Of a stretch of DNA of 64,000 nucleotides, positions 2,804 to 22,032 are shown in pieces. This DNA is from Hyphomonadaceae bacterium (GTDB taxonomy: Bacteria; Pseudomonadota; Alphaproteobacteria; Caulobacterales; Aquidulcibacteraceae): positions 1 to 64,000 of the forward strand of contig JAIELJ010000005.1 in NCBI GenBank assembly GCA_019753105.1, given 5' to 3'. The translations under genes were made by a program, and so were the position numbers. The notes under the pieces were generated by a model. That model did not search any database. It saw only the letters and a list, made by a program, of their open reading frames with translations, and had not been told where the DNA came from. Numbering within the stretch: the first letter of the stretch is position 1; the number at the start of each line of letters is the position of its first letter.

Positions 2804-4241
2804 GCTCTATATTGGCGGCGCTTGGCGACAAGGCGCGGGTGAGCGCTTCTCATCCCACAATCCCGTCAATGGCGACAAAGTCTGGGAAGGGCGGGCCGCG
2901 AGCGCTGACGATGTCGCCGAAGCGATGGCGGCTGCTCGGCTCGCGTTTCCATCGTGGTCGCGCCGTCCGGTGGAAGAGCGCGTCGCGATCGTTCGCGCAT
3001 TCGCCAAGGCGATCGAGAAACGCGGCGATGATCTCGCGCGCACGATCAGCGCCGAAATGGGCAAGGTCGCGTGGGACGCGAAAGGCGAAGTCGGTACGAT
3101 CATCGGCAAGGTCGAACTCGCCATCCGCGCGCAAGCTGAGCGGGCGGGCTTCAAGGAAGAGAAGGCGGCGTTCGGCGCGATGACGCTCTCGCACCATCCG
3201 CATGGCGTGCTCGCCGTGTTCGGTCCGTTCAACTTCCCAGGCCACTTGCCCAACGGGCACATCGTGCCCGCGCTCATCGCAGGCAATTGCGTGTTGTTCA
3301 AACCGAGCGAATTCACGCCGGGCGTCGGCGCGATCATGGCGGAGGCGTGGGAGGAAGCGGGGCTTCCGGCCGGCGTGTTCAACCTTCTGCAAGGCGCGCG
3401 CGAAACCGGCGCTGCATTGCTCGATGCGCCCAGTCTGAACGGCGTCCTGTTCACCGGCTCCGCGCACACCGGCGCGCTGATCCATCGCAAGTTCGCGGGC
3501 CGGCCCGACGTCATGCTGGCGCTCGAACTCGGCGGCAACAATCCGCTGATCGTTTGGCCGCCGACATATATGAGCGCGGCCGCCAACCTCATCGCGCACT
3601 CTTCATTCGCAACGAGCGGCCAGCGCTGCTCGTGCGCGCGCCGCTTAATCGTGCCGGACAATGTCGAGGGCGCGGCGATCGTCAAAGCGCTTGCCGATCT
3701 CGCGGTGCAAATCACTGTCGGGGCGGCGGACGCTCAGCCGGAACCTTTCATGGGCCCGTTGCTCAACGCGCAAGCCGCCGATCGTGCGGTAAAGCTGCAG
3801 GAAGGCTTGCTCGCAATGGGCGCTACAGCCGTGCTGCCGCTAAAGCGCGACGGCGCGTTTGTGACGCCAGGCATCATCGATGTGACAGGCCTTGCCGTGC
3901 CCGATGAGGAATTGTTCGGGCCGCTGCTTCAAGTTTATCGCGTGAAGGATTTCGACCACGCTCTCGATGTCGCCAACGCCACGCGCTTCGGCTTGTCCGG
4001 TGGTCTTATCAGCGATGACCCCGCTCTGTGGGCGCGCGTAAAGAACGAAATGCGCGCCGGCATTCTGAACTGGAATAGGCCCACCACTGGCGCATCTGGC
4101 GCGATGCCGTTCGGCGGGCCGGGGCTCAGCGGCTCGCTTCGACCGAGCGCATATTATGCGGCGGACTACGTCGCGTATCCTGTCGCAGCGCAATTGGCGG
4201 AGAAGGCGGCGGCGATCCCGGCGCCCGGCCTGCCGTCGTGA
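2790..4241 (+). CDS. astD: N-succinylglutamate 5-semialdehyde dehydrogenase
   Basis: A 483-residue aldehyde dehydrogenase, close to the usual AstD length of about 490. It oxidises succinylglutamate semialdehyde to succinylglutamate with NAD. Visible family motifs are GPFNFPGHLPNGH (cofactor cleft), the catalytic Glu in LELGGNNP near residue 250 and the catalytic Cys in SGQRCSCARR near residue 284. Context between astA and astB supports AstD over other ALDH subtypes. Two in-frame ATGs (2790 and 2793) both lie inside the end of astA. The 3' end overlaps astB by GTGA. Confidence 0.94.
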   Translation: MMHTELYIGGAWRQGAGERFSSHNPVNGDKVWEGRAASADDVAEAMAAARLAFPSWSRRPVEERVAIVRAFAKAIEKRGDDLARTISAEMGKVAWDAKGEVGTIIGKVELAIRAQAERAGFKEEKAAFGAMTLSHHPHGVLAVFGPFNFPGHLPNGHIVPALIAGNCVLFKPSEFTPGVGAIMAEAWEEAGLPAGVFNLLQGARETGAALLDAPSLNGVLFTGSAHTGALIHRKFAGRPDVMLALELGGNNPLIVWPPTYMSAAANLIAHSSFATSGQRCSCARRLIVPDNVEGAAIVKALADLAVQITVGAADAQPEPFMGPLLNAQAADRAVKLQEGLLAMGATAVLPLKRDGAFVTPGIIDVTGLAVPDEELFGPLLQVYRVKDFDHALDVANATRFGLSGGLISDDPALWARVKNEMRAGILNWNRPTTGASGAMPFGGPGLSGSLRPSAYYAADYVAYPVAAQLAEKAAAIPAPGLPS

Positions 4242-5575
4242 GCGCCGAAGAAATCAATTTCGACGGCCTCGTCGGTCAGACGCACAATTATTCCGGCTTA
4301 TCGGAAGGCAATTTAGCGTCCGCGCGTAACGCCAACATGATCGCGCGCCCGCGCGAGGCGGCGTTGCAAGGCATCGCCAAGATGCGGCGCTTGCGCGCGC
4401 TGGGCTTAAGCCAAGGCGTGCTGCCGCCGCATGAGCGCCCGAACATCAAATGGCTCCGCGCGCTCGGCTTTAGCGGCAGCGATGGCGCGGTTTGGGAAGC
4501 AGCATGGCGCACGCAGCCAACCATTGCGCGGGCTGCTTTGGCGTCATCGGCCATGTGGGCGGCGAACGCGGCCACGATCTCACCGAGCGCCGATTGCGCA
4601 GACGGTAAGCTCCACGCCACCGTCGCCAATCTGCAAACCATGCTTCACCGCATTCTGGAAGCCGAGCAAACCGAGCGGACATTGCGCCGGTTGATGCCGG
4701 ATGAAACACGCTTTGCCGTCCATTCGGCGCTGCTGGCGCATGACGCGCTTTCGGACGAGGGCGCCGCCAATCACATGCGCATGTGCGCAGCACCTGGCAG
4801 CGCCGGCGTCGAGATTTTCGTCTATGGCCGTAAAGCGAGCGAGACAAAGCAAGGCTTTCCTGCGCGGCAAACGCTTGAGGCGTCGCAGGCCATCGCGCGC
4901 GCGCACGGGCTCGGCGATGCTAACGCCGTCTTTGCCCGTCAGGCGTCAGCGGCCATCGATGCGGGCGCGTTTCACAATGACGTCGTCGCAGTCGCTCATG
5001 AGCAAGTGCTTTTCCATCACGAAGATGCGTTCGCAGATAAGGACGCGCTCTATGCCGAGGTGCGCGCCAAGGCGTCCGGCTTTGAGCCGATCTTCGTCGA
5101 GGTTCCGAGCGCTCGGGTAGGTTTGGAGGATGCGGTAACGTCGTATCTGTTCAACTCGCAGCTCGTACGTTTGCCAGGCGCAGAAACGCTTACGCTCATC
5201 CCGCCAACCGAAGTGCGCGAGAATAACAAGACCGCCGCTTACGTCGCCGAGATGATCGCGCAGCCGAACGCGCCGATTGGGCAGGTGGAGTATGTTGAAG
5301 TGCGCGAAAGCATGCGCAATGGCGGCGGGCCGGCGTGCTTGCGTTTACGCATCGTGATGACGCCCCAAGAGCGCGCCGCCGCGGCGCAGGGCTTTTTCCT
5401 AACGGACGCTCTCGCTGACCAACTCGAAGCTTGGGTACGCAAGCACTACCGTGAAGAGCTGGCGCCTGCCGATCTCGGCGCTCCAGCACTCGTCAGCGAA
5501 GTGCAAACAGCGCTCGACGAACTCACGCGTATCCTGCCGCTCGGCTCGGACTTCTATCCTTTTCAACGCGTCTAA
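4238..5575 (+). CDS. astB: N-succinylarginine dihydrolase
   Basis: 445 residues, matching AstB length (about 447). It removes two ammonia and CO2 from succinylarginine to give succinylornithine. The N-terminus reads NFDGLVGQTHNYSGLS, a strong AstB signature. Catalytic residues of the amidinotransferase-like propeller are visible: His in FHNDVVAVAHEQVLFHHE and the nucleophile Cys in NGGGPACLRLR. The GTG start overlaps astD. The succinylornithine transaminase (AstC) needed next is not in the window; a general acetylornithine aminotransferase encoded elsewhere could serve. Confidence 0.95.
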   Translation: MSAEEINFDGLVGQTHNYSGLSEGNLASARNANMIARPREAALQGIAKMRRLRALGLSQGVLPPHERPNIKWLRALGFSGSDGAVWEAAWRTQPTIARAALASSAMWAANAATISPSADCADGKLHATVANLQTMLHRILEAEQTERTLRRLMPDETRFAVHSALLAHDALSDEGAANHMRMCAAPGSAGVEIFVYGRKASETKQGFPARQTLEASQAIARAHGLGDANAVFARQASAAIDAGAFHNDVVAVAHEQVLFHHEDAFADKDALYAEVRAKASGFEPIFVEVPSARVGLEDAVTSYLFNSQLVRLPGAETLTLIPPTEVRENNKTAAYVAEMIAQPNAPIGQVEYVEVRESMRNGGGPACLRLRIVMTPQERAAAAQGFFLTDALADQLEAWVRKHYREELAPADLGAPALVSEVQTALDELTRILPLGSDFYPFQRV

Positions 5576-15574: not shown

Positions 15575-16207
15575 TCAGCTCTTTTGCGCCGCCGCGACCA
15601 GCGCGTCATCGATCTCGCGCGCACGCACAGCAGCAGGGCGCGCAGAAATCCGCGCCACATAAGCTTCAAACGCCGGCCGCTTATCGAGCGTGCCGAACTG
15701 CAAGCCCCAGCCGATTTGCGCGCCAAGATACACATCAGCCGCGCTAAAGCGATCGCCGAGCAAATAGTCGCGGCCCGCCAGCGCTTTCTCGAGCGTCTCG
15801 ATCACTTGCTCGCGCGAGCCATAGCCGACCATGCCGCGCTTTTCGTCCGGAACGTTGACGCCAAGCGCCGTGTTCGACGCCATCGCTTCAACCGGGCCCG
15901 CGCCATAAAACATCCAGCGATAATAGGCGCCGCGCTCCTTCGATCCGATCGCCGGCGCAAGGCCCGCTTGCGGAAACGCGTCTGCCAGATAAGCGCAAAC
16001 GGCAGCGCACTCGGTGATCACCGTGTCCCCATGTTTGATCGCAGGCACTTTGCCCATCGGATTGATCGCGAGATATTCCGGCGCCTTCATCGTCGTGCCG
16101 TAGTCGAGCACGACGGTTTCGTACGGCTGGCCGATCTCTTCCAGCATCCAGCGCGCGATGCGTCCGCGCGACATCGGATTGGTGTAGAATGTGAGCGTAT
16201 CGGCCAT
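15575..16207 (-). CDS. Glutathione S-transferase family protein
   Basis: 210 residues. A thioredoxin-like N-terminal domain carries TFYTNPMSRGRIARWMLEE and the cis-Pro in MGKVPAIKHGDTVITECAAV, which binds the glutathione gamma-glutamyl group. An all-helical C-terminal domain includes the conserved N-capping FSAADVYLG. The ORF track extends 137 codons too far upstream; the ATG at 16207 begins the fold. It diverges from the ArsC-like gene 33 bases away. Confidence 0.9.
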   Translation of the reverse strand: MADTLTFYTNPMSRGRIARWMLEEIGQPYETVVLDYGTTMKAPEYLAINPMGKVPAIKHGDTVITECAAVCAYLADAFPQAGLAPAIGSKERGAYYRWMFYGAGPVEAMASNTALGVNVPDEKRGMVGYGSREQVIETLEKALAGRDYLLGDRFSAADVYLGAQIGWGLQFGTLDKRPAFEAYVARISARPAAVRAREIDDALVAAAQKS

Positions 16208-16240
16208 GGCGTTTTCTCCGCCGGTTTGCATAATACGCGC

Positions 16241-16600
16241 ATGGCCAAGAGCAAGCAGATTACGATCTACGGCATCAAGAACTGCGACACGATGAAGAAG
16301 GCGCGCGTTTGGCTCGATGAGCACGGCGTCGACTATGTGTTCCACGATTACAAAGCCGAAGGCATCGACAAAGCGTCGCTGGAGCGCTGGGCGAAAGAGG
16401 TGGGCTGGGAAGTCTTGCTCAACCGCGCCGGCACGACGTTCCGCAAACTGCCGGACGCGCAACGCGAGAACGTGACGGAGAAGAAGGCGATCGCGCTGAT
16501 GCAAGAGCAACCCAGCATGATTAAACGCCCGGTGCTCGATGTCGGCGGCAAGCTGATCGTTGGGTTTAAGCCGGAGGTGTATGCAAAACAGTTTGGCTAG
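16241..16600 (+). CDS. ArsC/Spx-family protein (YffB type)
   Basis: 119 residues inside a longer shadow frame. The thioredoxin-like motif GIKNCDTMKKARVWLDEHG near residue 12 has a single active-site Cys, and TTFRKLPD plus MIKRPVLDVGGKLIVGF match the ArsC/Spx superfamily. The YffB-like subgroup is glutathione linked, and true arsenate reductase activity is not implied because no ars genes are nearby. The real start is the ATG at 16241, not the ORF-track start at 15584. Confidence 0.87.
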   Translation: MAKSKQITIYGIKNCDTMKKARVWLDEHGVDYVFHDYKAEGIDKASLERWAKEVGWEVLLNRAGTTFRKLPDAQRENVTEKKAIALMQEQPSMIKRPVLDVGGKLIVGFKPEVYAKQFG

Positions 16601-17268
16601 GCGTTGGAGATCATCCACGCAGCAGCAGTGTCCAGAATTCCAGCGAGTACCTGCGGATCTCTGCGGCCTGATTTTGCAGGCACATGGAAGCTGTGATCCG
16701 CATGCTCAGCGAGTGAAAGCGTCGCCCGCCTGCCGAGGCGCTGCACAATCGGCTGCAACAAATCGAGCTCCGCCAACGCATCGTTCGTCCCTTGCAGAAA
16801 CAGCATTGGTATTGCGACATCATCCAAGTGCTTCGCCCGCTCATCGCCCGGCTTGCCAGCCGGATGAAGCGGGAAGGCGAAGAAGACGAGCCCGCGCACA
16901 TTCGGCAATGGCGCCAACGCTTGCGCCTGCGACGTCATCCGCCCGCCAAAAGATTTGCCGCCAGCAAAGAGCGGCAGCTCGGGCGTAAGCTCTATCGTGT
17001 GCGCCACCGCTGCGCGGACAACGCTATGCGCAAGGGCAGGCGCATCAGGCCGTTTCGAGCCGCGCTCCATATAAAGAAAGTTGTATCGCAGCGTCGCAAT
17101 GCCACGCTCCGCCAAACCCTCCGCGATCGCCGCCATCGACTTATGCGCCATGCCAGCACCGGCGCCATGCGCGAAAACATACGCAGCCTTCGCATCTCTC
17201 GGCGCGAGCCAAAGCCCGGAGACGGAGGCGCCGCCGTCCAGTGAAAGGGTGCTCTCTTTTGCCGTCAC
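16597..17268 (-). CDS. Alpha/beta hydrolase (KANL3/Tex30-like)
   Basis: 223 residues. The oxyanion region VFAHGAGAGM, nucleophile elbow GGKSFGGRM with Ser near residue 105, the Asp region LFLQGTNDALAEL and the catalytic His in EHADHSFHVP are all present, so it should be active. This is the dienelactone hydrolase-like branch of unknown substrate. It is the last gene of the ArsR-led operon and overlaps the RibD-type gene by four bases. Confidence 0.85.
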   Translation of the reverse strand: MTAKESTLSLDGGASVSGLWLAPRDAKAAYVFAHGAGAGMAHKSMAAIAEGLAERGIATLRYNFLYMERGSKRPDAPALAHSVVRAAVAHTIELTPELPLFAGGKSFGGRMTSQAQALAPLPNVRGLVFFAFPLHPAGKPGDERAKHLDDVAIPMLFLQGTNDALAELDLLQPIVQRLGRRATLSLAEHADHSFHVPAKSGRRDPQVLAGILDTAAAWMISNA

Positions 17269-17825
17269 GCCGGCCGATAGAACAGCAGAACGCCACCGCC
17301 AGCAATCGCGCGCGTCTCGATCAGCTCAAGCTTTTCCCGCGCATTCTCCGGCTTGAACATCGGCGCGCCGCCTGTTTTACCGAGAAGGATGGGCGCGATG
17401 CAGACGCGATATTCGTCGATCAATCCCGCTTCGCGCAACGCGGCCGTGAGTTTCGCGCTGCCGAAAACATAGATGCTCCTCTCAGAGTCACGCTTCAGCG
17501 CAGCGACCTCATCAATGCTGCGCAGCAGACGCGTGTTGTTCCAGGCCGCAGATTTGAGCGTCGTGGAGACAACAGCTTTCGCCGCATTATTCATTCCGCC
17601 CGCGATCTCGCCTTCATTCGCCGCTTCCGCGCTCGTCCAATATTGCGCCATGCCTTCGTAGGTCGCGCGGCCGAAGAGGAGTAGGCTCGCATCCGCAAGC
17701 TGCTGTTTCGAGAGCTTCTCCAACTCCGGTCCCCAGACCGTTTCATGCATGGAGAGATCCCAAGGTGCGGCACCTTCAAACGCGCCGTCGAGCGACATGA
17801 CGTTCCAAATGATCAGCTTGCCCAT
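17265..17825 (-). CDS. Dihydrofolate reductase-like (RibD C-terminal) protein
   Basis: 186 residues. LIIWNVMSLDGAFEG and LLFGRATYEGMAQYW are typical of the RibD-C/DHFR superfamily (YwjB/YyaP-like), as is the SIYVFGSAKLTAALREAGLIDEYRV segment that holds the NADPH site. It is unlikely to be the folate enzyme, and the substrate is unknown. These proteins often occur with ArsR and SRPBCC partners, as they do here. Confidence 0.88.
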   Translation of the reverse strand: MGKLIIWNVMSLDGAFEGAAPWDLSMHETVWGPELEKLSKQQLADASLLLFGRATYEGMAQYWTSAEAANEGEIAGGMNNAAKAVVSTTLKSAAWNNTRLLRSIDEVAALKRDSERSIYVFGSAKLTAALREAGLIDEYRVCIAPILLGKTGGAPMFKPENAREKLELIETRAIAGGGVLLFYRPA

Positions 17826-17872: not shown

Positions 17873-18322
17873 TCATGCGAATTCCTTGGCGAGATTGTCG
17901 AGCGCCGCCGACCAGCCGAACTGGTAACCTTGCTCCATGTTCGAGCCATCGAACGATGCAATCTGCATGGTGAGGTGGAGATGCGTTCTCTCGCCGCGCG
18001 AAGAAAGCACCACGCTGATCAGCGCAGCCGAGACGCGTTTAGCGCCATGCTTCACGTCTTCCGCGAACACGATGCGCTCATCGTTTCGGATATCGAGGTA
18101 ATGAACCGTCGCGATGAAATCTTCATTGCCTGGCTCGATGCAACGAGAGACATCGCGGCCGCCTTCGCTGAAGTTCGCTTCTTCGTATTCGATGCGAATG
18201 TCATCAGCCGGCGCTGACCAGCGCTTACGGGCGTCGACGTCGGCCCAAGCGGCGAAGACGCGCGAGGGCGCAGCATCATAGTTTCGCTCCATCACGATGG
18301 TAGCGTGCGCAATGTCGGGCAT
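17873..18322 (-). CDS. SRPBCC (AHSA1-type START-like) domain protein
   Basis: 149 residues. The pattern ERNYDAAPSRVFAAWADVDARKRWSAP is the opening of AHSA1/SRPBCC proteins, and the C-terminus (GSNMEQGYQFGWSAALDNLAKEF) is the usual closing helix over the hydrophobic ligand cavity. The ligand is unknown. ArsR-SRPBCC pairs are frequent in bacteria. It lies three bases after the GST gene on the minus strand. Confidence 0.87.
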   Translation of the reverse strand: MPDIAHATIVMERNYDAAPSRVFAAWADVDARKRWSAPADDIRIEYEEANFSEGGRDVSRCIEPGNEDFIATVHYLDIRNDERIVFAEDVKHGAKRVSAALISVVLSSRGERTHLHLTMQIASFDGSNMEQGYQFGWSAALDNLAKEFA

Positions 18323-18325
18323 GGC

Positions 18326-18961
18326 TTAAGCTCCGGGATACATGTGAAAGAGCGGCTCGGATTCTTTCACAGCGCGTTGGAAGGAGGGGCGGGCATTCAG
18401 GCGTTGAAGATAAGCGGCAATCCGCGGGAAGGCGCCATCGAGCGGCGCGTTACGCGTCGCGTACCAAAGCGCCGGCGCAGCCGAGCAGTCTGCGAGCGTG
18501 AAGCTGTCGCCAGCGATAAAACCGTCATCCCGCAACTGCGCTTCGATCACGCTATAGATGCCGCGCACGATGCGCTTGGCCTCTTCGACGCCATACGAAT
18601 CGCGCTGATCAGCCGGGCGGATGTTGTCGACGACGATCTTGGACATCGTCACATTCAGATGATCGAACACCCGGTCCCAGCGCCGAACCTCAAGCGCTGT
18701 ATCGAAGTCCTTCGGCACAAAGCGCGTGGGGCCCGGATAGTATGCGTCGAGATATTCGATGATCACCGAAGTCTCAGTGATCATCGCATCGCGATCGCTA
18801 TCGAGCAGGATCGGAAACTTGCCCATCGGCCACTTGGCGATGAAGTCGGCATAGGTGTTTTGATCCACCGTGATCAAATCGAACGGCGTGGCGTTTTCGT
18901 AGAGCGCGATCAGCACCTTCCAAGTGAAGGAAGAAATCGGGTGTCCGTAGAGCGTGAGCAT
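18326..18961 (-). CDS. Glutathione S-transferase family protein
   Basis: 211 residues. The N-terminal thioredoxin fold (TLYGHPISSFTWKVLIALYE) and WPMGKFPILLDSDRDAMITETSVIIEYLD carry the glutathione site; the C-terminal helical domain contains FTLADCSAAPALWYA. It starts one base inside the ArsR stop codon (TAATG), so it is coupled to the regulator. The substrate is unknown; detoxification of an electrophile would fit the operon. Confidence 0.9.
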   Translation of the reverse strand: MLTLYGHPISSFTWKVLIALYENATPFDLITVDQNTYADFIAKWPMGKFPILLDSDRDAMITETSVIIEYLDAYYPGPTRFVPKDFDTALEVRRWDRVFDHLNVTMSKIVVDNIRPADQRDSYGVEEAKRIVRGIYSVIEAQLRDDGFIAGDSFTLADCSAAPALWYATRNAPLDGAFPRIAAYLQRLNARPSFQRAVKESEPLFHMYPGA

Positions 18962-19293
18962 TAATCGTCTTTCGTTTCATCGAGAAATTGGCCGAGGCGA
19001 TCGAGGCGGCGTTCCCAAAGCGCGCGTCGTTCGGCGATCCAGTGTTCGGCTTGGGAGAGAACCTTCGGATCAATCTTGCAGGTGCGCGTGCGGCCGACCT
19101 TTTCTGAGATCACCAGCCCGGACGCTTCCAGCACAGCCAGGTGCTGCATCACCCCCGGTAAGCTCATCGCCAGCGGCTTGGCCAGTTCGCTGACCGTCGC
19201 CGGGCCTTGAACCAGCCGGTCCACCATGGCGCGGCGGCTAGGGTCGGCGAGGGCCTGGAAGGCCAGATCGAGGATCGCGTCCTGTCTGAACAT
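18961..19293 (-). CDS. ArsR-type winged-helix repressor
   Basis: 110 residues with a winged helix-turn-helix: ALADPSRRAMVDRLVQGPATVSELAKPL, recognition helix SLPGVMQHLAVLEASGLV, wing EKVGRTRTCKID. It lacks the ELCVCDL metal site, so it is not a classical metal sensor; it resembles the group paired with SRPBCC proteins. The start is set at the ATG at 19293, not the longer 133-residue ORF, because the fold begins there and the palindrome abuts it. It is the first gene of a five-gene minus-strand operon. Confidence 0.9.
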   Translation of the reverse strand: MFRQDAILDLAFQALADPSRRAMVDRLVQGPATVSELAKPLAMSLPGVMQHLAVLEASGLVISEKVGRTRTCKIDPKVLSQAEHWIAERRALWERRLDRLGQFLDETKDD

Positions 19294-19319
19294 AACACTT
19301 AAGTAGATGCTTAAGTGTT
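19294..19319 (-). promoter_or_regulatory. Palindromic operator at the ArsR gene start
   Basis: AACACTTAAG, spacer TAGATG, CTTAAGTGTT: a perfect 10-bp inverted repeat ending on the base next to the ArsR start codon. AT-rich palindromes of this spacing suit dimeric ArsR proteins, so autoregulation is likely. There is no room for a leader RNA with a ribosome binding site outside the palindrome. Confidence 0.75.
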
Positions 19320-19388
19320 CATTGGCAAGTCGCGCATCCAAAACGCCTCGCGGCGGCTGCATACTTCCCGAAACTGGAGGCGAGTCTG

Positions 19389-19790
19389 ATGATTTCGGGC
19401 GGTATGGAACGCTGGATGGTGGCGTTGTTCATCTTTGGCGCGGTTGCGGTGTCGATGCTCGCTGCCGGGTGGGCGCAGTATCTTGAGCACCAGCGCCGCA
19501 AGCAGGCGATGGATGTCATCAAGGCCGCCATAGAGGCGGGCAGAGAAGCGCCGCCGATCGTTTACGAGCAGCTCGCCAAGGCAGGACAATCGAAGCCGCC
19601 CTGGGGCGAAGTCGTCGTGTTCACCGCGCTTAGCTTTGGCTTCTGGATCGGGTTCGCGAATGCCGAGGGCGAGCAGCGCACGGGCTTCATGGTGGTGGCC
19701 GCGACTATGACGTTGACTGCGATTGGTTGCCTGGCGCTCGCGATCATGCGTCCCGATCGCGGCGGCGGCAAAGACGATGAGTCCGCATGA
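19389..19790 (+). CDS. Two-/three-helix membrane protein, module A (DUF6249-like)
   Basis: 133 residues with a hydrophobic N-terminal helix (about 8-27), a charged cytoplasmic stretch (HQRRKQAMDVIKAAIEAGREAPP), and two more helices. The charged stretch resembles the DUF6249-type membrane proteins, and the same layout recurs in the gene at 20692. GGAGG precedes the ATG. Its last 14 bases overlap the sigma factor gene. A role in sensing or in control of the sigma factor is inference from position only. Confidence 0.72.
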   Translation: MISGGMERWMVALFIFGAVAVSMLAAGWAQYLEHQRRKQAMDVIKAAIEAGREAPPIVYEQLAKAGQSKPPWGEVVVFTALSFGFWIGFANAEGEQRTGFMVVAATMTLTAIGCLALAIMRPDRGGGKDDESA

Positions 19791-20307
19791 AGAAGCGCGT
19801 CTCATCGCCGCCGCGCGCCGGGGAGACAGCCGGGCGTTCGCAGCGTTGGTGGACGCGCACCAGCAGGCCGTGCGCGGCTTTTTTCGACGTTTTGCCGGGC
19901 ATTGGGCTGAAGCGGACGATATCGCGCAGGAAGCGTTCGTGACCGCGTGGAGCAAGCTTTCGCGCTTTGAGGGGCGATCGAGTTTTCGCTCTTGGGTGTG
20001 CGGCATCGGCTATCGCATCGCGCGTGACGCGCGGCGCGCACACGGACGCGGCGCCGTGCGCGACAATGACTGGGCGAGCGTGCACGACGATCGCGACGCC
20101 GCCGCGCCGCTCGAAGATCGCATCGCGCTCGCCAAGGCGATGGCAGAATTACCTGACGATCAGCGGGCCGCGGTGGCGCTCTGTTTGGGTGAGGGCTTTT
20201 CGCACACCGAAGCAGCTGCAATCCTGGCGCTGCCGCTTGGCACGGTTAAATCTCATGTGACCCGTGGCCGTGAGCGATTACTCTCGCGCCTTCGTGGAGA
20301 CGATTAA
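19777..20307 (+). CDS. ECF-type RNA polymerase sigma factor, module A
   Basis: 176 residues. Region 2 is AADDIAQEAFVTAWSKL-like (EADDIAQEAFVTAW near residue 45), which contacts core polymerase and the -10 element; region 4 has LPDDQRAAVALCLGEGFSHTEAAAIL and LPLGTVKSHVTRGRERL, the -35-binding helix-turn-helix. The start chosen is the ATG at 19777, which lies inside the preceding gene; the ORF track begins 18 codons upstream in unrelated sequence. The stop overlaps the next gene as TAATG. Confidence 0.92.
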   Translation: MSPHEEARLIAAARRGDSRAFAALVDAHQQAVRGFFRRFAGHWAEADDIAQEAFVTAWSKLSRFEGRSSFRSWVCGIGYRIARDARRAHGRGAVRDNDWASVHDDRDAAAPLEDRIALAKAMAELPDDQRAAVALCLGEGFSHTEAAAILALPLGTVKSHVTRGRERLLSRLRGDD

Positions 20308-20612
20308 TGGACGATGAAGCCCGTCTCGCGCGCGCCTTGGGCGCGCCGGCAGCGCCGAAGCGCGACGCCGCCTTCACGCTCGGGGTCATGCGCGAGGCCG
20401 AGCGCCAACGCTTCCGGCGCGCCTGGCTGCTCAGCCTGTTGCGGACCGCTGGCGTGGCCGCCGCGGGGGCGGCGCTCGCTGTTCCGCTTATGGGCTGGGC
20501 GCCCGGGAACCTGGCCGCCCTCCAGAATGGCCTGCTGACCGCCGGTTCCTTACTGGCGCTGGTGTCGTTTGCCCGGATCATGTCACAACGGCTTTCGATA
20601 GCCGCCCGCTGA
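20307..20612 (+). CDS. Small membrane protein, possible anti-sigma, module A
   Basis: 101 residues. A short N-terminal polar region (EARLARALGAPAAPKRDAAFTLGVMREAER) precedes two hydrophobic helices at about 44-63 and 68-88. The layout D..L...L..P..D..F...V is shared with the protein at 21643 that follows the second sigma factor, so both probably hold the sigma factor at the membrane. There is no zinc (HxxxCxxC) anti-sigma motif. The start overlaps the sigma factor stop codon. Confidence 0.65.
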   Translation: MDDEARLARALGAPAAPKRDAAFTLGVMREAERQRFRRAWLLSLLRTAGVAAAGAALAVPLMGWAPGNLAALQNGLLTAGSLLALVSFARIMSQRLSIAAR

Positions 20613-20691
20613 GCACGTGCATCCAAAGCCTCCGGCCCGGGCATCTATGACGTAAATGGGGCATGAGACCCCGGGCTATGGAGAGCAAATT

Positions 20692-21078
20692 ATGGGTGCC
20701 GATGTCTTTGTGCCCTTTGTGTTTTTTGGGTTTTTGGCGGCCGTTATTCTGGTCCCGATCTGGCTGAAGGAACGGACCAAACAGTCTGCTCACCAGCTTT
20801 TGTCGCAGGCTCTGGAGAAGGGCCAACAGCTCGATCCGGCGCTGATGCGCCAGCTGACCGAGGGTCAAAAGCAGCAGCAGGACCGGCCACGCCGCACCTT
20901 GGGCAGTGGCGTCGTGCTCCTGGCGCTGGCGATCGGTTTCGTCGCCGCGAACTTCCTGGATGGCGGTGACTTCACCGGCGGCGCTCTGCTCACGGCGGCG
21001 GTGATCCTGGGGTCTTTGGGGGCGGCTTTCATCCTGCTCGCAATCGTGGATTATGCGTCCAAGAAGAAGGACCAGTGA
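20692..21078 (+). CDS. Two-/three-helix membrane protein, module B (DUF6249-like)
   Basis: 128 residues from the ATG at 20692, which has GGAGAG six bases upstream; the ORF track extends 12 codons further. An N-terminal helix (VFVPFVFFGFLAAVILVPIWL) is followed by KERTKQSAHQLLSQALEKGQQLDPALMRQL, which parallels the charged stretch of the module A protein, then two more helices and a Lys-rich end. It stands immediately before a second ECF sigma gene. Confidence 0.72.
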   Translation: MGADVFVPFVFFGFLAAVILVPIWLKERTKQSAHQLLSQALEKGQQLDPALMRQLTEGQKQQQDRPRRTLGSGVVLLALAIGFVAANFLDGGDFTGGALLTAAVILGSLGAAFILLAIVDYASKKKDQ

Positions 21079-21088
21079 GTGGTAATCG

Positions 21089-21646
21089 GTGGCCGCGCGG
21101 GGGTTCCTCAATCTGGCTCAGGCCACAGAAGCCGCGCTGATTATCGCGGCCCAGGCCAGGGATCAGGCGGCTTTCGGGGAACTCGTAAAGCGCCGGCAAG
21201 GTTGGGCGCGTGCGCTGCTCAGGCGAATGTGTTCGAGCCACGCCGAAGCTGATGATCTCGCTCAAGACGCGTTCATCAAGGCGTGGGAAAGATTGACGGA
21301 CCTGGAAACACCGGCAGCGTTCCCGGGTTGGTTTAGGAGAATTGCAGTAACGACTTTTCTGATGGCCAAACGGAAGCAGAAGGCGATCTTCGAGGAGATC
21401 GACGATGCTTCCCCGATCGCAGCCGAGGGGAGCACCCCGGAAGCCGCGGCCGGCGCCAAGATTGACCTGGAAAAGGCTCTTGCGATGCTTTCAGATGCTG
21501 AGAGACTGTGTGTGACGTTGAACCACGGAGAAGGGCTCAGTCACTCTGAAATTGTAGAAATCACGGGTCTTCCCCTCGGCACCGTGAAATCACACGTACT
21601 AAGGGGGACCGAGAAACTGAAACGGCTATTGGAACCGGCGACATGA
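21089..21646 (+). CDS. ECF-type RNA polymerase sigma factor, module B
   Basis: 185 residues with a GTG start 10 bases after the membrane protein gene. Region 2 is HAEADDLAQDAFIKAWERL near residue 51; region 4 is LSDAERLCVTLNHGEGLSHSEIVEITGLPLGTVKSHVLRGTEKL. It is a paralogue of the module A factor, with the HTH segment LPLGTVKSHV conserved in both. It overlaps the next gene by four bases (ATGA). Confidence 0.92.
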   Translation: MAARGFLNLAQATEAALIIAAQARDQAAFGELVKRRQGWARALLRRMCSSHAEADDLAQDAFIKAWERLTDLETPAAFPGWFRRIAVTTFLMAKRKQKAIFEEIDDASPIAAEGSTPEAAAGAKIDLEKALAMLSDAERLCVTLNHGEGLSHSEIVEITGLPLGTVKSHVLRGTEKLKRLLEPAT

Positions 21647-22032
21647 ACGACTTTGACGCTCTTCTGAAGCGCTCCTTCGCGGAGGCCCCCGAACCAGCCG
21701 ATGACGGCTTTTCGGTGCAGATTAGTCGCGCCGTCGCTCATCGCGAGAAAACGGCGAAGGTCCGCAATGCCGCCTACACAGTTGGCATGGCCGCCGCGGC
21801 CGCAGCGGTTTGCTACGGCGCCTACGGTTTGATGGGCTTGTACGGCCAGGAAGTTCTGGCCACGGCCGGCTTGGAAGTGGCGCGCGTCCATGGTGCGCTG
21901 AGCGGCGCCCCGTCCGTGGGCGGCGCAGCCCAAGGCATGCTTCAGTCATTCGGCGCAGGCCTGACCCAGATGCTGCTTGTGTTCGGCGCGCTGGCTGGCG
22001 GCGCTGTGGCGTATCGCGCCGCTCAGGACTAA
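21643..22032 (+). CDS. Small membrane protein, possible anti-sigma, module B
   Basis: 129 residues. The N-terminus (FDALLKRSFAEAPEPADDGFSVQISRAV) matches the position and spacing of the module A partner; two hydrophobic stretches follow at about 45-66 and 100-124. The coupled start and the repeated gene order argue for an anti-sigma role, but no known anti-sigma domain is recognisable and this is inference. Confidence 0.65.
   Translation: MNDFDALLKRSFAEAPEPADDGFSVQISRAVAHREKTAKVRNAAYTVGMAAAAAAVCYGAYGLMGLYGQEVLATAGLEVARVHGALSGAPSVGGAAQGMLQSFGAGLTQMLLVFGALAGGAVAYRAAQD

Follow-up and report, generated by a model that had tools for sequence, protein, structure and literature searches.

Which protein, if any, recognizes the palindrome that lies beside an arsR-type gene in this Hyphomonadaceae genome, and what would its binding control? 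To answer this, we analyzed the window (the whole 64,000-nucleotide stretch), the genome from which it comes and relatives of the regulator. Taken as a whole, the explanation that we regard as very probable is that the ArsR-type repressor encoded alongside uses the palindrome as its operator and would act on its own operon.

The palindrome abuts the arsR start codon and occurs once in the genome

The palindrome (positions 19294–19319, assigned to neither strand) has the sequence AACACTTAAG-TAGATG-CTTAAGTGTT. Its 10-bp arms pair without a mismatch around a 6-base spacer, and the proposed ArsR half-site is ACTTAAG on either side of the 6-base centre. The arsR gene occupies positions 18961–19293 of the minus strand. 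Its ATG is at 19293–19291, and hence the palindrome, whose edge is at 19294, touches the start codon and lies immediately upstream of it. The first-pass annotation had described perfect inverted arms of 10 bp, 6 bases apart, next to the ArsR start; sequence and coordinates proved exact, and the ATG begins at the very next base.

When spacers of up to 10 bases were allowed, perfect 10-bp repeats were found at 6 distinct places in the whole window and at 0–7 places in eight first-order Markov simulations of it. The arm length by itself is within chance expectation, and an argument based on it was dropped. Because such repeats occur at the background rate, the significance of the palindrome must rest on conservation. 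The palindrome has a GC content of 31%, compared with 63% in the window. At up to three mismatches it has one match in the window and none in shuffled sequences. The genome search proposed with the first-pass annotation likewise returned one site only, at arsR: the palindrome core has a single match in the 3.87-Mb genome, the next best match has three mismatches, and at that level a reversed control pattern produced more matches than the real one.

The site accompanies the regulator

A genus sample of 30 genomes contained 19 with a close ArsR orthologue (73%–95% identity to the window's protein; the window's genome included) and 11 without. The pattern ACTTAAG-N6-CTTAAGT, with at most one mismatch, was present at arsR in all 19 genomes with an orthologue and, at the background rate, in 1 of the 11 others (Fisher p = 3.7e-7). 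One of the 19 (G009) contained one extra match, at chance level. Across 20 orthologous regions the sequence of the half-sites was kept, beyond mere pairing of the arms. By site search, the predicted ArsR regulon is a single site. A wider regulon was considered and rejected: there is no second site with fewer than three mismatches in the genome, and only chance matches were found at other genes in the genus.

The same genome encodes four ArsR paralogues (L006–L009). Three of them have clear palindromes that share the geometry but differ in type (TTCAACC, TTTAAC, and GTAACC), while the repeat at L006 is less clear. This pattern suggests that insulated parallel circuits may operate within one genome.

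The regulator is a winged-helix protein without classical metal ligands

ArsR is a 110-residue protein that scored above the curated cut-offs of the winged helix-turn-helix profiles HTH_20 (44.9 bits, cut-off 27) and HTH_5 (36 bits, cut-off 22) and of the ArsR/SmtB subfamily model NF033788 (69.6 bits, cut-off 55). Its domain thus places it in the ArsR/SmtB family, and the putative operator, an inverted repeat over the protein's own predicted promoter, is of the kind expected for that family. The predicted monomer structure (pLDDT 90) has the order H-H-H-H-E-E-H, and the predicted recognition helix comprises residues 45–57, carrying P46, G47, and Q50.

There is one cysteine, C72, and there are two histidines, one (H51) in the recognition helix and the other (H84) in the C-terminal helix. 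Inspection of the sequence revealed neither the α3 cysteine pair nor the α5 Asp/His set, in line with the earlier remark that the regulator lacks metal ligands. Their absence is not a special oddity, since it is common to the collected relatives. C72 (95/117 relatives), W85 (116/117), and W93 (109/117) are conserved, which makes a ligand or thiol signal plausible.

The palindrome overlaps a predicted leaderless promoter

On the minus strand, a −35-like hexamer, TTGCCA (19323–19328), is followed after 17 bases by a −10-like hexamer, TACTTA (19300–19305), located in the start-proximal half-site; the second half-site sits within the −35/−10 spacer. The TTG-type −35 is found at this fixed spacing in 19 of 20 orthologous regions (the exception, L025, has TTCCCA), and TA(C/G)TTA is exactly 17 bases from the −35-like hexamer in all 20. 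Likewise in 20/20, only 6–7 bases separate the −10-like hexamer from the start codon (ATG or GTG), and no Shine-Dalgarno-like motif was seen upstream of it. These features point to a leaderless promoter whose transcript would begin at, or within about one base of, the start codon (predicted start 19293, minus strand). The lack of a ribosome-binding site between palindrome and start codon would be explained by such an mRNA. TACTTA matches TATAAT poorly, and because of this weak match it is the conserved spacing alone that leads us to propose use of sigma-70 and a leaderless start; a generic promoter scan called nothing at the arsR promoter. In the related Caulobacter crescentus, leaderless mRNAs are common (375; PMC4117421).

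The annotated start codon is right, since several orthologues have an in-frame stop upstream of M1 and no other start between (e.g., L011, L012, L018, L019, L021, L022, L028, and L049). A longer N terminus beginning at 19362 was ruled out by the same stops, which lie just upstream of M1. With its −10 predicted to be inside the palindrome, the promoter would not accommodate repressor and RNA polymerase together, and the two would be mutually exclusive. In other genera, L040, L041, L043, L044, and L045 show an apparent second operator-like repeat (e.g., ACTTAAGCCATAAATGAAGT) ahead of the −35.

Further genera, from the same family and from the wider class, also show the TACTTA-ATG arrangement, but with the operator partner on the opposite side. 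The partner half-site is upstream of the −10 in the window's genus and on the start codon in the other genera, where the palindrome is centred near the start codon (GATACTTAAGCAT/ATGCTTAAC in L123; also L122, L126, and L080). CTTAAG is self-complementary, and therefore the half-site at the −10 can form a palindrome in either direction, with its partner upstream or downstream at an unchanged pitch. In evolutionary terms, the operator could have slid along a fixed promoter.

Half-site bases covary with residues of the predicted recognition helix

We gathered about 183 relatives, from genus to phylum level, together with their upstream DNA. For each, the best palindrome was picked on symmetry and AT content alone, blind to the protein, and 129 clear sites resulted. 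A mutual information scan of protein positions 19–36 and 40–56 against half-site positions in these 129 relatives gave its highest values for residue 50 against base −4 (0.76 bit) and residue 47 against base −5 (0.71 bit); for base −7 the peak was at residue 46 (0.45 bit). Counting only sites where both arms agree, residue 50 accorded with base −4 in 107 of 108 cases (Q with G, 50; K/R with C, 57; one exception). The residue 50 rule, formulated from loci at the genus to class levels, was checked on later class- and phylum-level loci and correctly called 29 of 31 (Q with G, 8/8; K/R with C, 21/23), the opposite base never being found. Residue 47 accorded with base −5 in 105/105 cases (A/G with A, 63; S/T with G, 42), a rule derived on all of the pooled data with nothing held out.

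The four combinations of residues 47 and 50 correspond to half-sites ending in AG, AC, GG, and GC. According to the rule, residue 50 fixes base −4 and residue 47 fixes base −5, giving TTAAG, TTAGG, TTAAC, or TTAGC; residue 46, as P or N and more weakly as S/T, has an influence on base −7. In the structure model, residues 46, 47, and 50 fall in the first turns of predicted helix 45–57, and residues 47 and 50 would be about one helix turn apart, matching adjacent bases. Each trait changed only about four to five times on the tree, with one independent pair of changes on a well-supported branch. Replication of the rule across the tree is therefore weak, and with so few independent changes, common descent may still lie behind the agreement. 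We lean towards the joint proposition that AHSA1-linked ArsR proteins follow a modular residue-base rule and that the operator in the window's genus could shift by one half-site while the leaderless promoter stayed in place.

An equivalence of residue 50 with Gln56 of NolR was considered early and abandoned. Brucella ArsR6 was set aside as an independent check; it is metal-responsive, and the available part of its description does not contain the site sequence. Correlation studies of comparable type were found for the MerR, IclR, and GntR families, and none for this ArsR group among the open-licence papers searched. The placement of the palindrome had been read at the outset as suited to autorepression. 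Co-occurrence with the regulator, a single occurrence per genome at its gene, overlap with the predicted promoter, and covariation with the recognition helix together speak strongly for that role.

A five-gene unit would be under control of the site

Downstream of arsR, on the same strand, lie a glutathione S-transferase (GST)-like gene (gene 2, 18326–18961), whose start overlaps the arsR stop (TAATG); a gene for an AHSA1/SRPBCC-fold protein (gene 3, 17873–18322); a gene for a RibD C-terminal/dihydrofolate-reductase-like protein (gene 4, 17265–17825); and, as probable gene 5, an α/β hydrolase gene (Abhydrolase_11, 16597–17268) that overlaps gene 4. This arrangement recurs, with some losses and an additional GST, in 13 named relatives (L047–L059). 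The named records among the relatives are for the most part Hyphomonadaceae/Caulobacterales metagenome-assembled genomes, with one labelled Terricaulis. The GST gene is kept beside arsR in 12 of the 13 (exception L058) and the AHSA1 gene in all 13 (partial in L059, diverged in L055). The AHSA1 gene occurs in one to three tandem copies in relatives: the window has one, and many of L047–L059 have two or three diverged copies (~3970–5350). Downstream of the operon is a second GST-like gene (15575–16180, minus strand), with the same placement in several relatives; an ArsC/Spx-like frame, recognized by eye at 16200–16600 on the plus strand, converges on it.

On the other side of the palindrome, beside panB, are two tandem DUF6249/ECF/anti-sigma-like modules (19389–22032, plus strand), each comprising a small membrane protein, an ECF sigma factor, and a putative anti-sigma factor. 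A pair of similar promoter-like elements (19334–19364 and 20619–20649, plus strand), each with GCATCCAA, about 13 bases, and then GGCTGCATAC or GGCATCTATG, lies upstream of the DUF6249-like genes of these modules and is conserved in relatives. These elements are probably autoregulated ECF promoters. The first module is missing in L052, L055, and L056, and the first element is lost in relatives along with it.

We infer the following mechanism. An ArsR homodimer would place one recognition helix on each ACTTAAG half-site, with the dimer centred between them. As the start-proximal half-site holds the predicted −10 and the other lies in the spacer, the bound dimer would keep RNA polymerase off the promoter. 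The mRNA would be leaderless, with the A of the ATG as its first base, and repression would span arsR, GST, AHSA1, RibD_C, and hydrolase genes, all co-oriented and presumably transcribed together. We presume that a signal from within the cell releases the repressor, and the likeliest candidates are a small non-metal ligand and an electrophile tied to the operon enzymes.

Alternatives differ in the signal and in the protein bound

ArsR might instead lack an inducer and hold the operon at a steady low level. The protein has no known ligand site, and no inducer is named in the available part of the report on its well-studied relative Rv2034; however, C72, W85, and W93 are conserved outside the recognition helix, and the co-oriented enzymes are of ligand-binding and detoxification type, both of which suggest a signal. 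We consider such constitutive autoregulation unlikely. A thiol switch, in which the single conserved Cys72 on the wing senses electrophiles removed by the GST, is in our view distinctly doubtful. The conservation of C72 and the retention in most relatives of a GST gene overlapping the arsR stop are in its favor, but many relatives outside the set whose neighbourhoods were examined also retain C72, and to our knowledge the thiol switches of the ArsR family use two cysteines.

The palindrome might also be the site of another regulator or serve mainly the divergent DUF6249-ECF sigma operon, as it lies between two divergent units and about 15 bp from GCATCCAA, which resembles an ECF promoter −35. 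This is very improbable: within the genus the site accompanies arsR, across relatives its bases track the ArsR recognition helix, and in L052, L055, and L056, where GCATCCAA beside arsR is gone with the first ECF module, the palindrome and the arsR promoter remain, for which reason a role in the ECF promoter was rejected. It is scarcely credible that the repeat functions as RNA, whether as a terminator or as a hairpin in a leader, or that it arose by chance. Simulated sequence does contain perfect repeats as large as this one at about the rate seen in the window, but this one is AT-rich without a T run, is upstream of the predicted transcript start, and keeps its half-site sequence, beyond pairing, in 20 orthologous regions.

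Comparison with known systems

An operator bound by ArsR, the reading that we prefer, would make of an orphan regulator a switch that experiments can probe, with a proposed operator of 26 bp and five genes as its target. Three features merit follow-up: the proposed leaderless promoter merged with the operator, the slid position of that operator, and the rule linking residues to bases. This rule would allow operators to be predicted from protein sequence for the large, poorly characterized class of non-metal ArsR proteins, and would make repressor specificity testable with one or two substitutions. The locus may also illustrate a compact mode of regulation that merges the promoter with the operator and the start codon.

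SmtB, CzrA, and NmtR are metal sensors that bind palindromic operators. They have the winged-helix fold in common with the window's ArsR, and their winged helix-turn-helix part aligns with it; the alignments reach no further than the wing or slightly beyond it (query residues 72–80) and leave out the C-terminal helix. The window's protein differs from them in lacking the metal ligands and in its half-site. The SdpR autorepressor model NF033789 matches residues 11–87 at 52.1 bits, below its cut-off of 100, and membership in that family was rejected. The best sequence match in the PDB is 3f6o, a probable ArsR-family regulator, which aligns over nearly the full length; RTC and the W-containing C-terminal helix both fall within the match. 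Its recognition helix reads MALPSFMKH (S47, K50), for which the rule predicts TTAGC, compared with TTAAG in the window.

The closest functional parallel is Rv2034 of Mycobacterium tuberculosis, an ArsR-family protein whose self-repression was shown by footprinting, EMSA, and a lacZ fusion, and whose operator is CCGTAAGT-CTAA-ACTTACGG, with an N4 spacer (PMC3338718). As described there, Rv2034 is, like the window's ArsR, a small protein whose gene has an inverted repeat close to the start codon, and its operon includes a polyketide_cyc2/SRPBCC-type gene; the window's arsR likewise has an SRPBCC-fold gene, co-oriented and two genes downstream. Comparison of the DNA shows TAAG at half-site positions −7 to −4 in both operators, whereas the half-site as a whole is CCGTAAGT in Rv2034 and ACTTAAG in the window. 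Targets of Rv2034 further include phoP and dosR, while the site in the window is single-copy in its genome. Most likely, then, the window encodes an ArsR autorepressor of a known kind, like Rv2034, with binding predicted from sequence; what is new are the rule matching residues to bases and the slid operator.
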